Shown: positions 43,278 through 51,783 of the stretch, one piece after another
How positions within the stretch are numbered: the stretch's first letter is position 1
Layout of the letters: every line of letters starts with the position of its first letter
DNA from: Verrucomicrobia bacterium LW23
Lineage (GTDB): Bacteria > Verrucomicrobiota > Verrucomicrobiia > Methylacidiphilales > UBA1321
Direction of reading: 5' to 3'
Assembly: GCA_003054695.1 (NCBI GenBank)
Contig: QAZA01000050.1
Coordinates: 62,001 to 126,000 of the forward strand
DNA length: 64,000 nucleotides
The notes under the pieces: model-generated
The model's input: only the letters and a program-made list of their open reading frames with translations
Databases searched by the model: none
What the model was told of the DNA's origin: nothing
Position numbers and translations under genes: made by a program

Positions 43278-43760
43278 ATGTCGCTGGTCCAAACCGTGGA
43301 TATTCAGGCGCCGCTTGGCGGGGTATTTCTTGCCGCGGCGGACGTGGCCAGGTGGCCGGAGTTTATGCCGCATATTCGCTACAACCGTTACCTCAGCCAT
43401 CACCCGGGCGGTGGCACCATCCGCACGGCCGCCACCCGCGCCGGTGTGGTGTTGCACGGCGTTGCCGAAGTGGCGATCGACCCGGTGCTGCAGGAACTTC
43501 GCTTTACACACACCTCCTCCACAGCCGGTGCCGGCACGGGCATGACGGTAACGTGGGGCTTTAAGGAGCTGCCCGACGGCGACACGCGCGTTACCGTCAC
43601 CCACACCTTCTCCGGCGGGGCGGAGGTGCGCGCCGGCGTTGTCGGGCGCGGGTTGAGGAAACTCTTTTACGCCGAGGACATTACCGCCCTTTCGCTCCAG
43701 TGCCTCAAACGCCGGGTGGAGATGCAGCAACTTTCACCCGGGGCATCCCGGTGGATCTGA
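43278..43760 (+). CDS. SRPBCC-fold (polyketide cyclase/CoQ-like) protein
   Basis: 160 residues. The START/Bet v1-like fold is visible from the first strand-helix QTVDIQAPLGGVFLAAADVARWPEFMPH and the late strand with VTWGFKELPDGDTRVTVTH. Such domains hold a hydrophobic ligand in a deep cavity. No signal peptide. It ends the YezD-like pair, followed by a strong hairpin. Ligand unknown. Confidence 0.85.
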   Translation: MSLVQTVDIQAPLGGVFLAAADVARWPEFMPHIRYNRYLSHHPGGGTIRTAATRAGVVLHGVAEVAIDPVLQELRFTHTSSTAGAGTGMTVTWGFKELPDGDTRVTVTHTFSGGAEVRAGVVGRGLRKLFYAEDITALSLQCLKRRVEMQQLSPGASRWI

Positions 43761-43825: not shown

Positions 43826-44410
43826 TTACGCCGCCGTTTTGGCCTGCGCGGCCCGGGCGGCCGAGAGGCGGCGAAACATGCTGGGCAGCGGATGCGGATG
43901 AATCACCGCCTGACGCCCGGCCGCGACGGACGGCACCGAGGCATCGGCGGCGACACCAGCGGCCGTGGCTTTGCGGCGGGTGGTCTTCTTCGCCACCCTG
44001 GGGGAGGCGGCGGCAATGGCGGGCTCGGGCCGGGCGGGCGCTGCCGCAACCACGGCTGCAGCGGCTGCAGCGGCGGCGGCGGCAGCCTCGGCTTCGGCGG
44101 CGGCTTTCATGGATTCGCGAAACTCTTTCTCGGGATCCCAAAACAGGTAGAGCACATCCACCCAGTCGTAGCCCAGCTTCTCCAGCACGGTGTCGGACAG
44201 ACCGCGCGCGTTTTGCAGGCCGGCGCTGACCGTCATGCCGGCACCAAAACCCATGGCAATGCCGGCACCAAATCCCACAGCTATGGTGGCGCCAAATCCC
44301 AGCGCCGCGGTGGCACCCAGCGAGAGGGACGAGATGACGAGACGAGTGGACATGTCACGCACTTTAGCACATTCCCGATGGAAGGCCAGAACTTTGTCTA
44401 GTAATTCCAT
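43826..44410 (-). CDS. Glycine-zipper membrane protein with Ala-rich coiled tail
   Basis: 194 residues. Between about 25 and 65 lies a hydrophobic run with repeated GFGA units (ALGFGATIAVGFGAGIAMGFGAG), which is a glycine-zipper type membrane helix pair as found in proteins that pack tightly in or curve membranes. Then a region WVDVLYLFWDPEKEF and a long Ala/Glu helix (residues 98-122, with over 20 Ala) followed by a basic Lys/Arg/Ala tail. No domain recognised. An alternative start at 44353 removes 19 residues. It is adjacent to and divergent from the degenerate P-type ATPase gene; the two promoters share only 50 bp. Confidence 0.68.
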   Translation of the reverse strand: MELLDKVLAFHRECAKVRDMSTRLVISSLSLGATAALGFGATIAVGFGAGIAMGFGAGMTVSAGLQNARGLSDTVLEKLGYDWVDVLYLFWDPEKEFRESMKAAAEAEAAAAAAAAAAAVVAAAPARPEPAIAAASPRVAKKTTRRKATAAGVAADASVPSVAAGRQAVIHPHPLPSMFRRLSAARAAQAKTAA

Positions 44411-44460: not shown

Positions 44461-47187
44461 ATGCCTACCGCCGTCGCCGTACGCCAATCCCCAACCTCCG
44501 CCCCACCCAAAAAGCCCGGCGCCCGGGCGCCACGCCCCGCGCCTGTGGGGCGGGAAATCCCCACCGAGCGCCTGCGCGATGTGTTGCCGCCACGCATTAC
44601 ACCTACCGCAAGCGGCATCGCCATCTGGCACGCCACACTCTTCTCCACGCCTGCCTCGGAGCACAGCCGCCTTTTCATCCAGCGGGTGTTTGAGACGGCG
44701 CACGTTGCAGGGATGGAGATTGACGCGCAGCAAGGCGTGGCTCGCCTCGCGTTCGGCCACGCAACCTCACCCGCCGAGGCGGTGCGCCATTTGCGCGCCG
44801 CGCTGGCCCGTCCCGTGGAGAGCACGGGGGCCAATCCCGATCTCGAGCTGTCGGCCGGGCTTTTCCTGCAGCCTTTTGAGGATCACCCCATCCGCATCTC
44901 GCGTGCCGGAGCGTATCTCACTACCTGGACGATCGAGTTCCAGGGCGCGGACTCCGTACGCCTCTCCCACCCCGTGCTCAAGCGGCGCCGCGACGTAGCG
45001 TACCGGCTGGAGGAGGAGCTGACCGCCGTGCAGGGCGTGCGCGATTTCAGCGCCAGCGTTTACGCCAGCTCCATCACCATCCGCCTTCATCGCCGCCGCA
45101 TCGATGTGCCGCGCCTTCTGCGCCATCTGGAGCACTGCTGGCCGCGCCTTATCCACGGCCTGGAGGGACCGCCTCCCACCACCCGGCTCATCGCCTCCTT
45201 TACGTTGCTGACGGGCGCGTTTGTGGGCCAGTACTTTATTCCGGCGCTGACGCCGTTTGTGCTGGCCGGGATGATCGCCTACGCCTCCACCAACGTCTAC
45301 ACCGCGCTCACGCAGCTGCTTCGCGGCAGGATCGGCCTGCCCATGCTGTACACCGGCACCATCACGTTTACGACCATCAGCGGCATGCCTTTTGCGGCCG
45401 CGTTTATGGCCACGTGGATGCAGCTGTGGCCCCGGTGGACGCGCAAGCTCCTTGTCTCCAGCCAGCGCCGGCTGTTTGCGGGCCACCGCCAGCGCGCCAC
45501 CTGGGCGCGGCGCCTGGACGCCGGCGGGCGCCTGGCCGAAGTGGTTATCGATCACATCCGGCCCGGCGACATCATCATTGTGCGCGACGGCGAAATCATC
45601 CCCGTGGACGGCGTGGTGGAGGCGGGGCTGGCCGCCGTGGACGAGGAAGTGCTGACCGGGCGCGCCGGCGCCCTCGACAAGGCGCCGGGCGACGCCGTTT
45701 ACGCCGCCACGCAGATCCGAACCGGGCGCATTGCCGTGCGTGTGGAACTTATTGGCGTGGAGACCCTTGCCGGCTACATTGGCGAGAACCTGCCGCACGG
45801 CCCCATCGATCGCCTCCCCACCTCCGCCGAGGCGGAGACCATCGCAACGCGCATGGTATGGCCGGCCCTTGCTCTCTCAGCGGGCAACCTGCTGCTGGGC
45901 GGGCCGATGCAGCCCTCGCAATCCACCATCCGGCCGGACTACGCCACCGCCCCGCGCTTCAGCGCCCAGCTTGCCGCGTTGCACGACCTGAGCGACGCGC
46001 TGCGCCGGGGCATTGTCTTTCGCGATCCCGCCGCGCTGTGCCGCCTGCCCGCCACCGACATTTACGTGTTTGACGACTCCCCCGCGCTGCTGCGGCGCAA
46101 CGTGGCTGTGGGTGCGGTGATTGCCGGTCGCCTCTCGGTCACCCGGGTGCTCAGCTACGTGGCTTCGGCGTTTCCCGCGTTTCAGAACGAGCGGGCGCGG
46201 GCGCTGATGCAGGAGAGCCTGCGGCGCCGCGCCCCGCTGCTGGCAATTTCCCAGCGCACGCGACATGCCGGGTCCATCAGCTACGTGGATGCCGACGGCG
46301 ACCAGATTGAAATTGCGACGCCCGCCTTTGTGCAGGCCCGGAGGATCCGGATTCCCGCTTCGATCCAGGCCAGGCTGACCACCCTGCAACAGGCGCGCGT
46401 TTGGGCGGGCGGCGCGGCGGATGCGGACCCGGTGCTGCGGCCGCTCTGGGCCATCCGCAACGGGGCTATCGTGGGCGTGGTTACATTCGAGAGATCCGGC
46501 GAGGCCGAGGCGGCGGAGACGATTGCGGTGCTGCGCGCGCGTAATCCTCGCGCCACGTTTGTGCACATCTCCCGCCACAGCCGCACCAATGCACAGGAGC
46601 TTGCGGCGCGCATCGGTATCGAGACGGTCTACGCCGGCCTTAACCCCACAGGCAAGGCGGACGTACTGCGCAGCCTGGGGCGCCGCACCATGTGGATCGG
46701 CGATGGCAGCCTGCCGGAGTCCCGCACGTGCATGGAGGCGGCCGGAATCAGCATCTCCGTGGGCGGCGCGGCCACGCTGCCGCTGGACGGCGCCCAGGTC
46801 GTCCTTCTGCAAGGCGGCGTGCGCGGCCTTGTGCCGCTGCGGCGCATGGGGCGGCATCACCGCGCGCTGATTAAGGAGGGATATCGGACGGTCTTCGCGG
46901 CCAATCTCTTTTGCGTGGCGGGCGCATTTTTCGGCGGATTCAACACACTGGCCGTCGCCATTGTCTCCAACCTGGGGACGGGCTATGTCTACGCCAGGCA
47001 CCGCAGCCTGCTCAACGATCTTATCGCCCGGATGGAAGCCCGCATGGGAAGCACCTCCGTGGACACGGCCGAAGAGCCCGACCCGCAGGATGCGGCGGAC
47101 TTTGCCGACGCCCACGTAACGGAGGCGTCGGAAGACTATATCGAGCACGATCTGGACGCAGCGACGACTCAGGACCAGCCGATCTGA
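44461..47187 (+). CDS. P1B-like P-type ATPase homologue with all catalytic motifs degenerate (pseudoenzyme)
   Basis: 908 residues, intact frame. Two N-terminal ferredoxin-like repeats (about 55-125 and 145-240) and two membrane helices are followed by the actuator, where the essential TGES is TGRA (399-402). The phosphorylation motif DKTGT reads DDSPA (538-542), so Asp538 remains but Lys, Thr, Gly and Thr are lost. The HP nucleotide motif is absent (AFQNERARA), and GDGIND is GDGSLP (747-752). The intramembrane metal-site cysteine of its paralogue has no counterpart. All losses fall at catalytic positions while the scaffold aligns along its length to the active gene at 49159. It is therefore a probable non-pumping partner or scaffold, not a decayed gene. 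Mostly unchanged reading frame and codon use support selection. Confidence 0.85.
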   Translation: MPTAVAVRQSPTSAPPKKPGARAPRPAPVGREIPTERLRDVLPPRITPTASGIAIWHATLFSTPASEHSRLFIQRVFETAHVAGMEIDAQQGVARLAFGHATSPAEAVRHLRAALARPVESTGANPDLELSAGLFLQPFEDHPIRISRAGAYLTTWTIEFQGADSVRLSHPVLKRRRDVAYRLEEELTAVQGVRDFSASVYASSITIRLHRRRIDVPRLLRHLEHCWPRLIHGLEGPPPTTRLIASFTLLTGAFVGQYFIPALTPFVLAGMIAYASTNVYTALTQLLRGRIGLPMLYTGTITFTTISGMPFAAAFMATWMQLWPRWTRKLLVSSQRRLFAGHRQRATWARRLDAGGRLAEVVIDHIRPGDIIIVRDGEIIPVDGVVEAGLAAVDEEVLTGRAGALDKAPGDAVYAATQIRTGRIAVRVELIGVETLAGYIGENLPHGPIDRLPTSAEAETIATRMVWPALALSAGNLLLGGPMQPSQSTIRPDYATAPRFSAQLAALHDLSDALRRGIVFRDPAALCRLPATDIYVFDDSPALLRRNVAVGAVIAGRLSVTRVLSYVASAFPAFQNERARALMQESLRRRAPLLAISQRTRHAGSISYVDADGDQIEIATPAFVQARRIRIPASIQARLTTLQQARVWAGGAADADPVLRPLWAIRNGAIVGVVTFERSGEAEAAETIAVLRARNPRATFVHISRHSRTNAQELAARIGIETVYAGLNPTGKADVLRSLGRRTMWIGDGSLPESRTCMEAAGISISVGGAATLPLDGAQVVLLQGGVRGLVPLRRMGRHHRALIKEGYRTVFAANLFCVAGAFFGGFNTLAVAIVSNLGTGYVYARHRSLLNDLIARMEARMGSTSVDTAEEPDPQDAADFADAHVTEASEDYIEHDLDAATTQDQPI

Positions 47188-47227: not shown

Positions 47228-47716
47228 TCAGGCGGCGGAGCTGTCGGCCTCGGCGGCGGCGGCTTCCTTTTTGGCGCGGGAGCGGCTGCGCGAGCGGGAC
47301 TTGCCGGAGCGGGGGCGCGGCGCGGGCGTTTCGGCTTCAACTTCGGCTTCTTCAGCCTCTTGCTCAGGCGCTTCGGAGATCTCCTCCTCGTCAAACTCGC
47401 CAGGGACGATGCCGCGGCGGCGGGCATGGGCTTCCAGGGCGGCGTCGGCGCCTTGCTCCAGGCCTTTGCGCAGGGAGCTGTTCTCGGGCAGAAGCTCCGT
47501 CAGGAACACAGAGGTGAACACAACCCCGTAAGAGAAGCCGAATCCCGCGTTAAAGATACCCGTGTTGACTGCGTGCTTGACGTTGCCAGCGGCCACTTTT
47601 GCGGACTCGCGCGCATGCGCCGCCGTGTCGTGAAAGTGCTCCGACGCAGAGCCAAGCGCTGCTTCAATGTCGGCAAAGGGGATGGTCTTGGACTCCGTCT
47701 GTTTTTGGGTTGCCAT
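47228..47716 (-). CDS. Membrane-associated protein with acidic and basic tail, DUF5132-like
   Basis: 162 residues from the ATG at 47716. Residues 1-45 are an amphipathic helix. Residues 50-75 are a hydrophobic glycine-containing segment (TGIFNAGFGFSYGVVFTSVFL), again of the Gly-Phe-Gly type, like the protein at 43826. Then a helix with SLRKGLEQGADAALEAHARRRG, an acidic Glu-rich stretch, and a basic RSRSRSRAKK tail. It resembles small DUF5132-type proteins that occur beside metal P-type ATPases, but this is a weak resemblance. It lies 37 bp downstream of the ExoD-like gene in the same direction. Confidence 0.6.
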   Translation of the reverse strand: MATQKQTESKTIPFADIEAALGSASEHFHDTAAHARESAKVAAGNVKHAVNTGIFNAGFGFSYGVVFTSVFLTELLPENSSLRKGLEQGADAALEAHARRRGIVPGEFDEEEISEAPEQEAEEAEVEAETPAPRPRSGKSRSRSRSRAKKEAAAAEADSSAA

Positions 47717-47753: not shown

Positions 47754-48632
47754 TTACAGGCCGAGGAACGACGTGAGGCCGATGACAAGCGCGCCGAGCG
47801 CCAGCACGGAAATCGCGCCAAGGACAACGCCGGCGCAGATGATCAGCCCGTCGCGCTCCACCAGGCCCAGGCCGATGATGAAGATCGAGATGGCCTGCGG
47901 CATGTTGAAGCCGGGAATCGGAAAAGCGATGGAGAGCGCCAGGAGAAACACGAACATGCCGATAAGCCGCTGGGCACTCGGCGAGGACGCCCACTCCCAG
48001 CGCGGTTTGGTCGACTTTTCGGCGCGGCGCAGCACGGGCAAAATAGCGTAGACCGCCGCCGCCAGGGCCTTGCGCGGAACGGAGCGCTCCAGCAAAAACT
48101 TCGGCAGCCGCACTTCCTGCCGCCCCGCGGACATCTGCCAGCCCAGCGCCAGGGTGGGTAGCACCACCAGGGCCGAGATGCCCGGCATGGGGATGGGAAG
48201 TACCTCGGGCAGCGAGAAGAACATCAGCGACGTGCCGAAAGACGAGACACCCAGCACCTGCAGGATCTGCTCCACGGTAAAAGACTCCGCCGTGGGGTTT
48301 TGCGTCAGGATGGACTGCAGCCGCTCCGAGGTGCGCCGCGTATCCTGGCGGAAATGGCTTTCCGGCCCGGGGGGCGGCAGCGCCTTCAGTGCCGGGAACC
48401 TGGGCTCCGTACGTTTGGGGGCGGGTTGCGTGCGTACCAGGCGGAGGGTGGCGGAGGTGGAGGTGGCGGCGGAGGAGGGCGAAGATGCTGGCGCAGGCGC
48501 TTTGCGGGGACGGCTCGCGGCCGCCGGCTGTTTGCGAGGGGCGACGGCTCCGCGCTTAGCGGATGTTCGCTTTTTCGACTTCGCAAGGCGTTCAGGCGCA
48601 GCGGCTTGAGTTGGGGATACGTGCTGGGTCAT
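47754..48632 (-). CDS. ExoD-family membrane protein
   Basis: 292 residues. The first 95 are a Lys/Ala/Pro/Ser-rich disordered tail, absent from usual ExoD proteins of about 200 residues. From about 100 on is the ExoD domain, with MFFSLPEVLPIPMPGISALVVLPTLALGWQM and SIAFPIPGFNMPQAISIFIIGLGLVERDG, each a repeated proline-rich membrane segment. ExoD affects exopolysaccharide synthesis and pH tolerance in rhizobia; the mechanism is unknown. Same direction as the downstream small membrane protein at 47228. The ATG follows CCCTCCCCCCGTTCCCCCG. Confidence 0.82.
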   Translation of the reverse strand: MTQHVSPTQAAAPERLAKSKKRTSAKRGAVAPRKQPAAASRPRKAPAPASSPSSAATSTSATLRLVRTQPAPKRTEPRFPALKALPPPGPESHFRQDTRRTSERLQSILTQNPTAESFTVEQILQVLGVSSFGTSLMFFSLPEVLPIPMPGISALVVLPTLALGWQMSAGRQEVRLPKFLLERSVPRKALAAAVYAILPVLRRAEKSTKPRWEWASSPSAQRLIGMFVFLLALSIAFPIPGFNMPQAISIFIIGLGLVERDGLIICAGVVLGAISVLALGALVIGLTSFLGL

Positions 48633-48824: not shown

Positions 48825-49103
48825 ATGCTAGACAAAGCCAAGATCCGGGCCATCAAGCGCAACGCCAGGCGTTCCCGCCACCCTCGGGAGTACCCGCTGG
48901 CTGACCTGACCGTCGCCCGGAACGCTGTGCAGGAGCTTCAGCCCTACGTCAAGGCCGGGCGCGAAGCCTTTGAGCACGCCTATGCCACCGTGCTGCGCCA
49001 GGTGTACGAGAAGAAGGAGGCGCTGGAAGATTACATTGCCGAGCGAAAGGCTGCGGCCCGTCTGCAGCCTCCGGCGCCTAAAATTCACCCTTTCTCCCGG
49101 TAA
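48825..49103 (+). CDS. Small basic helical protein upstream of the active P-type ATPase
   Basis: 92 residues, entirely helical in pattern. The N-terminus is strongly basic (KAKIRAIKRNARRSRHPRE) and the middle has a Tyr/Val heptad helix (AYATVLRQVYEKKEALEDY). No membrane segment or known domain. It lies 55 bp upstream of the P-type ATPase and in the same direction, so it is likely co-transcribed. Could bind nucleic acid, polyphosphate or an acidic partner; not determined. Confidence 0.6.
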   Translation: MLDKAKIRAIKRNARRSRHPREYPLADLTVARNAVQELQPYVKAGREAFEHAYATVLRQVYEKKEALEDYIAERKAAARLQPPAPKIHPFSR

Positions 49104-49158: not shown

Positions 49159-51783
49159 ATGCATCAGGTTTCCTTGAAAACGACGACCCGCCCGCAGCCG
49201 CTCCAATCGGCCCCCGTCAAGCGCAAGGCGCACACAGCCAGCGCCGAGGCCCCCGCGCTGCGCGACATCCAAATCAACTTCCCGGGCGGCCTGCGGTTCC
49301 AGATCCGTTCCGCCTCCCTCTTTGCGGATCCGTACAGCGAGGCGGTCCGCACGTTTATCAGCCGCGTCTTTCGCTCGCCGGAGGTTCAGTCGATCGAGAT
49401 CGACGGGACGGCCGGGACGGCCGAGATTGCTTTTGTAAGCCTGGACGGCACCTCCGGCCGGCGCCTGATCCAGCGCATTGGCCGCGCGCTGGCGGCGGAG
49501 GAGCACGCGCAGGACGCCGTGGTGGATCTCTATATTCCGCCCGCGCCGCTCTCCGCACAGGATGCCCGGCTGATTTCGGTGTACCGCTACGGCTCGGTTA
49601 TCTCCACCTGGGCTGTGCGCCACCAGACACCGGGGCGCCTTCGCTTTCGCAATCCGTCCATCTACCGCAAAAAGGACATTTGCCAGGCCATCGAGCGCGA
49701 GCTGATGAGCGTGCCCGGCATCGAGCGCTACAAAACCAATGAGCTGACCAGCACGGTGCTGGTGCACTATAACCCGCGCGCCATCCGTAAGCGGCAGATT
49801 GTCGAGCTGCTGGACCTGGTGCTGCGCCGCGAAGCCCAGGAGGGCCGAACGGCCATGGATCTGGACCTGCCGCTGGCCACCGCCTCGCTGGCCCTGGCGG
49901 CCACGGCGCAACTGGCGGCGCCCGCGCTTTTGCCGGTGGCGGCGGGCGTGTTTGTGTACTCCACCATCCCCAGCTTTAAGGCGGGGTACGAGGTTCTGTT
50001 CAAGGAGCGGCGCCTGGGTGTGGATGTGCTGGACGTCATCGTTATCGGCGTCTGCCTTGCCACCACGCAAATCTTTGCCGGCAGCGTGCTGGCGTGGTGC
50101 TTAAGCTTTGGCCGCAAGCTGGTAAAGAAGACGGAGGACGACAGCAAGAAAATGCTGCTCAATGTCTTTGGCAAGCAGCCGCGCTTTGTGTGGCTGTACC
50201 GGGATGGCCAGGAGATCGAGACCGCGCTGGAGAAGCTGAAACTGGGCGATATCATCGTTGTCAACACCGGCGAGACAGTGCCGGTGGACGGCGAGATTAC
50301 CGAGGGCCTGGCGATGATCGACCAGCACTCGCTTACCGGCGAATCAGCGCCTGCGGAGAAAGCCGTTGGCGATAAGGTTTTTGCGTCGACAACCATGGTG
50401 GCTGGCAAGATCAAGGTGGCCGTTACCAGCGCCGGCAGCGAGACGACGTCCGCCAAGCTCACGCGCATCCTTAACGATACGGCCGGCTACAAGCTGCGCT
50501 CGCAATCGCAGGCGGAAGAGCTGGCGGACAAGGCGGTGATCCCCACTCTGGGCCTCGCGGCGCTGGGCCTCAGCACCATCGGCGTCAACGGCGCCACGGC
50601 GGTCATCAACTGCGATCTGGGCACCGGCATCCGCATGGCGGCGCCGCTGGCCATGCTGACCTCCCTGACGCTGTGCGCGCAGCACGGTATTCTTGTGAAG
50701 GACGGCCGCGCGCTGGAACTGATGCGCAAGGTCGACACCTTCCTCTTCGACAAAACCGGCACGCTTACACGCGAGCGGCCCGAGGTGGGGCGCGTCCTCA
50801 CCTTTGGCGGCTATACGGAGGCGCAGATTCTCACCTGGGCGGCGGCGGCGGAGTACAAGTTCAGCCACCCCATCGCCAAGGCTATCATCAGCAAGTTCGA
50901 GTCGCTCGGCCTTCCAATGGCCCAGATTGATGACTCGAAATACCACGTGGGCTACGGCATTACCGTAAGCGTGGACGGCTATACGGTACGCGTTGGCAGC
51001 GTGCGCTTTATGAAGCATGAGGGCATTACGTTGCCGGAGAACCTGAGCCACGAGATCGAGGCCGTGTATGGCGAAGGCAACTCCGTCATCCTTGTGGCCG
51101 TGGACGACGCGCTGGGCGGCGCCATCGAAATGTGCGCGGCCAATCGCCCCGAGGTCGAGGAGGTCATCCGCGGCCTGCGCGAGCGCGGCGCCAGGCACCT
51201 GGCCATCATCTCCGGCGATCACGACCGGCCCACCCGCCGCCTGGCGGAGAAGCTGGGGATGGACCGCTACTTTGCGGAGGTTCTACCCCAGGACAAGGCG
51301 CGCTATGTGGAGCTGCTGCAAAAGGAAGGCCGCACCGTCTGCTTTATCGGAGACGGCATCAACGACTCCATCGCCCTCAAGCGCGCCAACGTCTCCATTT
51401 CGCTGCGCGGCGCCTCCAGCATTGCCACGGATACCGCGCAGGTGGTGTTTATGGAGGAAAGCCTGGCCAAACTGCTGCAGCTACACGATATATCCCAAAG
51501 TCTGCAGCGCAATGTGGACCGCAGCTGGAACATCATCATCGTGCCCAACGCCATCTGCATCACCGGCGCCTTCCTCTTCGGCTTCGGCGTCATGCACTCC
51601 ATGATCTTCAACCAGATCGGCGCGATCTTCGCTTTAGCCAACGGCCTGCTTCCCCTGCGCCGCGTCGCCCAGGCGCAGGCCGAGCTGGAACGCGCCGCCA
51701 CCGAGCTGATCGTCCCGCACGACTATGAGGATGAGGATGACGAGGAAGCGCCTCTTCACACGCGTGCCGGCCAGGGCAGTTAG
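49159..51783 (+). CDS. P1B-like heavy-metal P-type ATPase, catalytically complete
   Basis: 874 residues. Two N-terminal ferredoxin-like domains (about 40-115 and 135-230) precede a membrane domain. Catalytic motifs are all intact: TGES at 393-396, DKTGT with the phosphorylated Asp531, the HP motif in KFSHPIAKAI, and GDGIND at 731-736. The metal-site motif, normally CPC in the sixth helix, is replaced by NCDLGTG with Cys485-Asp486, so it belongs to a non-canonical metal group and the ion cannot be told from sequence. It is full-length relative to its degenerate paralogue at 44461. The C-terminus is acidic (DYEDEDDEEA). Probably pumps a transition metal across an inner or intracellular membrane. 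Confidence 0.9.
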   Translation: MHQVSLKTTTRPQPLQSAPVKRKAHTASAEAPALRDIQINFPGGLRFQIRSASLFADPYSEAVRTFISRVFRSPEVQSIEIDGTAGTAEIAFVSLDGTSGRRLIQRIGRALAAEEHAQDAVVDLYIPPAPLSAQDARLISVYRYGSVISTWAVRHQTPGRLRFRNPSIYRKKDICQAIERELMSVPGIERYKTNELTSTVLVHYNPRAIRKRQIVELLDLVLRREAQEGRTAMDLDLPLATASLALAATAQLAAPALLPVAAGVFVYSTIPSFKAGYEVLFKERRLGVDVLDVIVIGVCLATTQIFAGSVLAWCLSFGRKLVKKTEDDSKKMLLNVFGKQPRFVWLYRDGQEIETALEKLKLGDIIVVNTGETVPVDGEITEGLAMIDQHSLTGESAPAEKAVGDKVFASTTMVAGKIKVAVTSAGSETTSAKLTRILNDTAGYKLRSQSQAEELADKAVIPTLGLAALGLSTIGVNGATAVINCDLGTGIRMAAPLAMLTSLTLCAQHGILVKDGRALELMRKVDTFLFDKTGTLTRERPEVGRVLTFGGYTEAQILTWAAAAEYKFSHPIAKAIISKFESLGLPMAQIDDSKYHVGYGITVSVDGYTVRVGSVRFMKHEGITLPENLSHEIEAVYGEGNSVILVAVDDALGGAIEMCAANRPEVEEVIRGLRERGARHLAIISGDHDRPTRRLAEKLGMDRYFAEVLPQDKARYVELLQKEGRTVCFIGDGINDSIALKRANVSISLRGASSIATDTAQVVFMEESLAKLLQLHDISQSLQRNVDRSWNIIIVPNAICITGAFLFGFGVMHSMIFNQIGAIFALANGLLPLRRVAQAQAELERAATELIVPHDYEDEDDEEAPLHTRAGQGS

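Follow-up and report, generated by a model that had tools for sequence, protein, structure and literature searches.

P-type ATPases are usually seen as catalytic pumps that work on their own, any accessory subunits having unrelated folds. KdpFABC unites a P-type catalytic subunit and other subunits in one complex (PMC10654040), and in Mycobacterium the P1B pump needs a non-catalytic membrane partner, PacL, encoded alongside it (PMC9374683, PMC13043812). The human protein TMEM94 has P-type architecture without TGES, and neither ATPase activity nor phosphorylation was detected for it (PMC12134183). The gene pair described here differs from all three. In KdpFABC the sole P-type subunit is active and the partners have other folds. 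In the PacL1-CtpC effluxosome the partner is PacL, a DUF1490 protein of small size with a single TM helix, and not a dead pump. TMEM94 is human, has ten TM helices, and is not described as having an active paralogue paired with it in one operon (PMC12134183). PacL sets a precedent for the non-catalytic partner and TMEM94 for the inactive P-type-like protein; in neither case does a dead pump share an operon with a live one. Pseudoenzymes are already known, as is a human P-type-like protein without activity; no account of a bacterial pump with a conserved dead partner was found in the open-licence papers searched. Searches of open-licence papers returned neither the phrase pseudo, inactive or degenerate P-type ATPase nor HMA2 domain-containing protein, and no pseudoenzyme together with a P-type ATPase.

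The gene under study lies in the window, the whole stretch of 64,000 nucleotides of Verrucomicrobia bacterium LW23 that was analysed. Its product, P0001, shares fold, membrane core and actuator domain with the P1B heavy-metal ATPases (CopA, ZntA; TIGR01525), of which the adjacent gene encodes an active member. Unlike CopA and ZntA, P0001 has no catalytic motifs and no TM4 metal motif, and it stays under the curated cut-offs. The features of both genes are as follows.

44461..47187, + strand: pseudo-P1B-ATPase (P0001), long type, 908 aa (translation, Pfam, NCBIfam, alignment, tree, model)
44593..44808, + strand: first N-terminal ferredoxin-like (HMA-like) domain, residues ~45-116 (AlphaFold2 secondary structure; domain type inferred)
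44890..45156, + strand: second, HMA_2-like domain, residues ~144-232 (weak PF19991 match and model)
45655..45666, + strand: TGRA replacing actuator TGES, residues 399-402 (alignment)
45928..45942, + strand: IRPDY replacing the TM4 metal-site NCDLGTG, residues 490-494 (alignment)
46072..46086, + strand: DDSPA replacing DKTGT, residues 538-542, Asp538 retained (alignment)
46180..46203, + strand: FQNERARA where the N-domain HP motif belongs, residues 574-581 (alignment)
46699..46716, + strand: GDGSLP replacing GDGIND, residues 747-752 (alignment)
49159..51783, + strand: active HMA_2-containing P1B-type ATPase, 874 aa, canonical motifs complete, inferred partner (Pfam, NCBIfam, alignment)

The first-pass annotation had claimed that all four motifs (TGES, DKTGT, HP, GDGIND) are replaced in a protein of 908 residues. 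Translation, which gave a 908-codon frame without internal stop, and alignment confirmed this. The changed motifs stand at residues 399, 538 and 747, where that annotation had placed them, against TGES 393, DKTGT 531 and GDGIND 731 in the active neighbour, which also has SHPIA 569 and NCDLGTG in TM4. At the end of TM2, P0001 reads WPR (323-325) and the neighbour GRK. By Pfam, P0001 matches PF00122 over the cut-off (E 7e-22), PF19991 only under it (residues 166-215, E 0.004), and no HAD/Hydrolase domain, whereas the active neighbour has E1-E2 ATPase (PF00122), HMA_2 and HAD hydrolase domains. P0001 remains under the curated cut-off of every NCBIfam P-type ATPase model; for TIGR01525, which the active neighbour passes, it scores 146 bits against a cut-off of 346. 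All five marks of an active P1B ATPase fail in P0001 (DKTGT, TGE, GDGxND, N-domain HP and the TM4 metal-binding motif), while membership of the P-type superfamily is met by descent and fold (PF00122 and the structural match). These comparisons show a P-type fold without any motif for ATP binding, phosphorylation or dephosphorylation. Chance loss in P0001 is excluded because the same loss is found in 10 homologues.

The dead P-type ATPases number 11, with two in the window genome, eight in seven other Verrucomicrobiota genomes and one on a Methylobacterium plasmid, and all are intact frames. In the alignment the canonical motifs are absent from 11/11 dead proteins and present in 11/11 active relatives compared. 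TGE is not aligned at the actuator site in any dead member and the hinge ND is gone in all, with the hinge GD often retained. The replacements are mostly common to the family: RPD[YF] at the TM4 metal site and DD[ST] for DKTGT. The latter loop reads DD[ST] or DDG in 10/11 members, which retain its first Asp; the exception, the second dead ATPase of the window genome (contig C45, L043:12218-14866), reads EKDS, with Glu at that place. Residues conserved specifically in the dead proteins include W323 (11/11), D539 (10/11; Lys in the active ones), P498 (9/11; active Ile) and R491 (8/11; active Asn). The window genome also encodes a 1071-aa P-type ATPase (L043:210-3425) that is extended at its C terminus by a long membrane-like stretch.

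Among the relatives, the long orthologue in genome G421 (L070:17052-19787) is intact, with 911 aa, and reads SGKA, DDTPA and GDGSDP. Plasmid pMRAD05 of Methylobacterium radiotolerans carries the active ATPase MRAD2831_RS63595, the CorA-like RS63735 and a 614-aa hypothetical protein, RS63730, spanning the record start, and profile comparison aligns the 614-aa protein with the dead family (E 4e-28). An IQ-TREE tree of the dead and active proteins plus 16 other P-type ATPases, built at a careful setting, placed the dead proteins in one group (support 100/99) and the actives in another. The dead family is older than the genomes compared. The first-pass annotation had suggested testing whether homologues conserve the degenerate motifs. 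The G421 orthologue, from another order, is intact and has motifs degenerate in a like manner, and the remaining nine homologues are uninterrupted frames in which the canonical motifs are missing. The annotation had named two observations that would refute it, intact-motif homologues at the same locus and frameshifts in relatives. Neither was found among the relatives, and every frame is intact.

A scan of genome contigs with P0001 alone gave no match, and a contig scan with the first alignment returned just three already known genomes. Viral contigs gave ordinary or partial P-type ATPases only, and plasmid records searched with P0002 yielded no additional one. The pMRAD05 member is annotated as hypothetical protein and a further dead ATPase from Gloeothece, treated below, as HMA2 domain-containing protein. 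Given such labels, dead members are probably under-counted.

The extent of domain loss differs within the family. Long members retain all domains and have lost HP in the N domain. The N domain is deleted in the eight short members, and the pMRAD05 member is also without most of the A domain. All 11 retain the ferredoxin-like region at the N terminus, the helices in the membrane and the core of the P domain. AlphaFold2 models were obtained for P0001 (pLDDT 71.6, pTM 0.53) and for the short protein of genome G009 (pLDDT 75.6, pTM 0.61), both on shallow alignments of 8-9 sequences (mean pLDDT 72-76). The best matches of both were P1B ATPases. Against 7r0g_A, the P0001 model gave Z 28.3 (rmsd 9.7, 565 aligned) and the short model Z 27.2 (rmsd 6.2, 478 aligned). 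Only 143/268 residues of a CopA P+N chain were matched by the short model, which is in line with N-domain loss.

The dead proteins are tied to one clade of active pumps. We found this clade in ten genomes or plasmids, with a dead ATPase in the same cluster in 9/10 (G000, which is the window genome, G005, G009, G028, G421, G575, G586, G614 and pMRAD05). G005, G009 and G028 belong to the window's order; G421, whose cluster has both long and short dead types, and G575, G586 and G614 belong to another. In the tenth, G610, the contig stops 317 bp upstream of the active gene, and no dead ATPase was detected there or elsewhere in the genome. Of 384 genomes sampled from the class, six had the active clade, all with a dead ATPase in the cluster (6/6). 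In G421's order, 2/3 further genomes had the dead ATPase with the active one, the exception being G610. No close dead ATPase was found in genomes without the active clade among 288 genomes of the phylum and 62 of the order; phyla beyond Verrucomicrobiota were covered through plasmid records only. Distant active relatives in G773 (44% identity) and G155 (39-41%) have no dead ATPase nearby, so the pump type as such needs none. In G773 (L115:1150-6349) the place beside the active gene is taken by a membrane-like protein of 444 aa and, separately, an HMA-like protein of 176 aa. Pairing is also not always in cis, because the second dead (C45) and second active (contig C11, L044:9029-11641) ATPases of the window genome are on separate contigs. 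No active ATPase of the clade lies beside the C45 gene (L043:12218-14866).

In the window, the genes around the two ATPases are these.

43278..43760, + strand: SRPBCC/polyketide cyclase-like gene (Pfam)
43826..44410, - strand: 194-aa protein, Gly-rich hydrophobic segment then Ala-rich tail, possible scaffold (sequence)
47228..47716, - strand: small Ala-rich, Gly-rich membrane protein, 162 aa from Met (alignment of eight homologues)
47754..48632, - strand: ExoD-family membrane protein (PF06055), conserved cluster member (Pfam)
48825..49103, + strand: 92-aa protein, function unknown, directly upstream of the active ATPase (ORF and Pfam scan)

The ExoD and small-protein genes thus lie between the two ATPases on the opposite strand. 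Homologues of the small membrane protein, which has no Pfam family above cut-off, accompany the active ATPase in eight clusters, and a gene of the same SRPBCC/polyketide cyclase-like family adjoins it in G421. The 194-aa protein has nothing over the Pfam cut-off; its layout resembles that of PacL scaffold proteins.

The commonest operon, present in G009, G575, G586, G614 and pMRAD05, has ExoD, the small membrane protein, the active ATPase, a CorA-like protein and the dead ATPase in that order on one strand. In G009 the last two intergenic gaps are 14 and 18 bp, and in pMRAD05 the CorA-like stop overlaps the start of the dead ATPase (TGATG). The six CorA-like proteins (L040:12695-13543, L041:8780-9628, L071:9768-10625, L078:10681-11529, L079:8036-8884 and L076:13510-14406) all stop at Pfam CorA position 243-244 of 292, inside TM1. 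The GMN motif and the second TM helix are absent in 6/6, leaving the marks of an active CorA channel unmet, and a search for a frame shift restoring the C terminus found none. This truncated CorA-like protein is a second degenerate transporter in those operons, which carry a short dead ATPase. No truncated CorA-like gene was found in the window genome or in G421. A related CorA from Microvirga, considered as a further cluster, was rejected: it retains its full length including GMN, and no dead ATPase is annotated next to it.

The first-pass annotation had also read the gene as a pseudoenzyme under selection, and the conserved family without catalytic residues, at dN/dS 0.09-0.28, supports this. 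The window gene compared with its G421 orthologue gave 0.28 (active partners 0.15), and the short dead pairs 0.125 (G009/G005) and 0.087 (G575/G586), with 0.03 and 0.04 for their active partners. The dead ATPase thus evolves faster than the pump. Most changes are carried by third codon positions, and the ratios are rough because dS is 1.1-1.5, near saturation. These data show a family under purifying selection and not in decay. Distances among dead and among active proteins correlate over six genomes (r 0.97; 2/720 permutations as high), which is what is expected for genes inherited together.

We think that the conserved dead ATPase most likely serves the pump as a partner or regulator without catalysing anything itself, their physical association being inferred. 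For the window gene itself, we hold it probable, with some reserve, that it is a catalytically dead P1B-type ATPase acting in this way, its lack of catalysis read from the missing motifs and the association again inferred. Counted in favour are motif loss, the single group, purifying selection, linkage, the lack of a close dead ATPase in sampled genomes without the active clade, operon coupling, matched divergence, fold and the separate dead ATPase of Gloeothece; the split of the C45 and C11 copies, G610, the distant relatives G773 and G155, the near-saturated dS and the shallow models count against it. Itself incapable of a Post-Albers cycle, the dead protein would lie next to the pump in the membrane. 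Its two ferredoxin-like domains at the N terminus and its rebuilt TM4 site, with Arg and Asp where metal would bind, could serve to gauge the metal load, and it might set the activity, stability or placement of the pump. In the larger operon it may regulate jointly with the pore-less CorA-like protein and the small Gly-rich membrane protein. There is no physical or genetic evidence that dead and active ATPases interact, and their linkage and co-variation may reflect joint inheritance.

A conserved pseudoenzyme need not bind the pump at all. It could have its own job in the same pathway, as a membrane metal sensor, a metal buffer or a membrane-domain scaffold. Such a job would suit three findings: every member keeps the N-terminal region, the helices and the P core, and not the A and N domains; the dead protein evolves faster than the pump; and the C45 copy has no active neighbour. 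We nevertheless consider it rather unlikely, in view of the near-constant linkage to one pump clade, the operon coupling and the matched divergence. Overlapping with the partner model is the idea that the genes together make an iron-storage organelle of the ferrosome (Fez) kind, or a platform like the effluxosome, with the dead ATPase as a structural part. A P1B-type pump with small Gly/Ala-rich membrane proteins does resemble the PacL-CtpC layout (PMC9374683), but seven small proteins tested with Pfam gave no hit to DUF1490, DUF6110 or DUF5132, and the neighbours scanned, which were not all of them, included no FezC-type protein with DUF4405; we find this doubtful.

The retained residues raise the question of whether the protein is still enzymatic by another chemistry, such as HAD-type phosphatase activity or phosphotransfer via Asp538 in the DD[ST] loop. 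The first loop Asp is present in 10/11 members, the second is conserved and the hinge GD is often kept. Against this, eight members have no N domain, the hinge ND is gone in all, P0001 matches no HAD family and the C45 loop has Glu, which makes such chemistry very improbable. A decaying duplicate heading for loss would also lack the motifs and outpace its active copy, yet all 11 frames are intact, the motifs are replaced in similar fashion in different orders and phyla, and dN/dS is far under 1, which leaves that explanation hardly tenable.

A dead P-type ATPase near a live one is also found in a cyanobacterium. On a plasmid of Gloeothece verrucosa PCC 7822, an active HMA_2 ATPase is followed by three small genes and then by WP_013334278.1 (L104:9807-11375), an HMA2 domain-containing protein of 522 aa that is a dead P-type ATPase. 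Its sequence can be aligned with the P-type core; DKTGT is replaced by VFAAKSF, the hinge reads IDNTTGDD, and there is no A domain. It resembles the window family in lying near an active HMA_2 ATPase and differs from it in origin and in lacking RPDY, DD[ST] and the A domain. In the tree it groups with its own active neighbour and not with the Verrucomicrobiota dead ATPases (SH-aLRT 96, long branch); by this placement it is independently derived.

It is tempting to propose a bacterial multi-subunit P-type pump in which a live P-type ATPase is joined with a dead one and, in the operon form, a pore-less CorA assists. Dead transporters would thereby be reused as sensing or regulatory subunits, and dead P-type partners would have arisen at least twice. 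We offer this tentatively, as plausible and no firmer. If true, it would add pseudoenzyme regulation to the P-type superfamily, with dead tied to live in two phyla and by a second, cyanobacterial origin. The Methylobacterium radiotolerans plasmid provides a cultured strain, JCM 2831, for testing the partner idea.

Other genes were observed around the clusters. A carbonic anhydrase is near the ATPase cluster in three genomes (L040:7114-7818, L078:13835-14551 and L071:6815-7513), assigned to Pro_CA by Pfam at L040 and L078 and similar in sequence at L071. A SulP-type sulfate permease and a solute-binding protein adjoin the active ATPase at L070:7190-10059 and L077:515-3285 (Pfam on L070 only).
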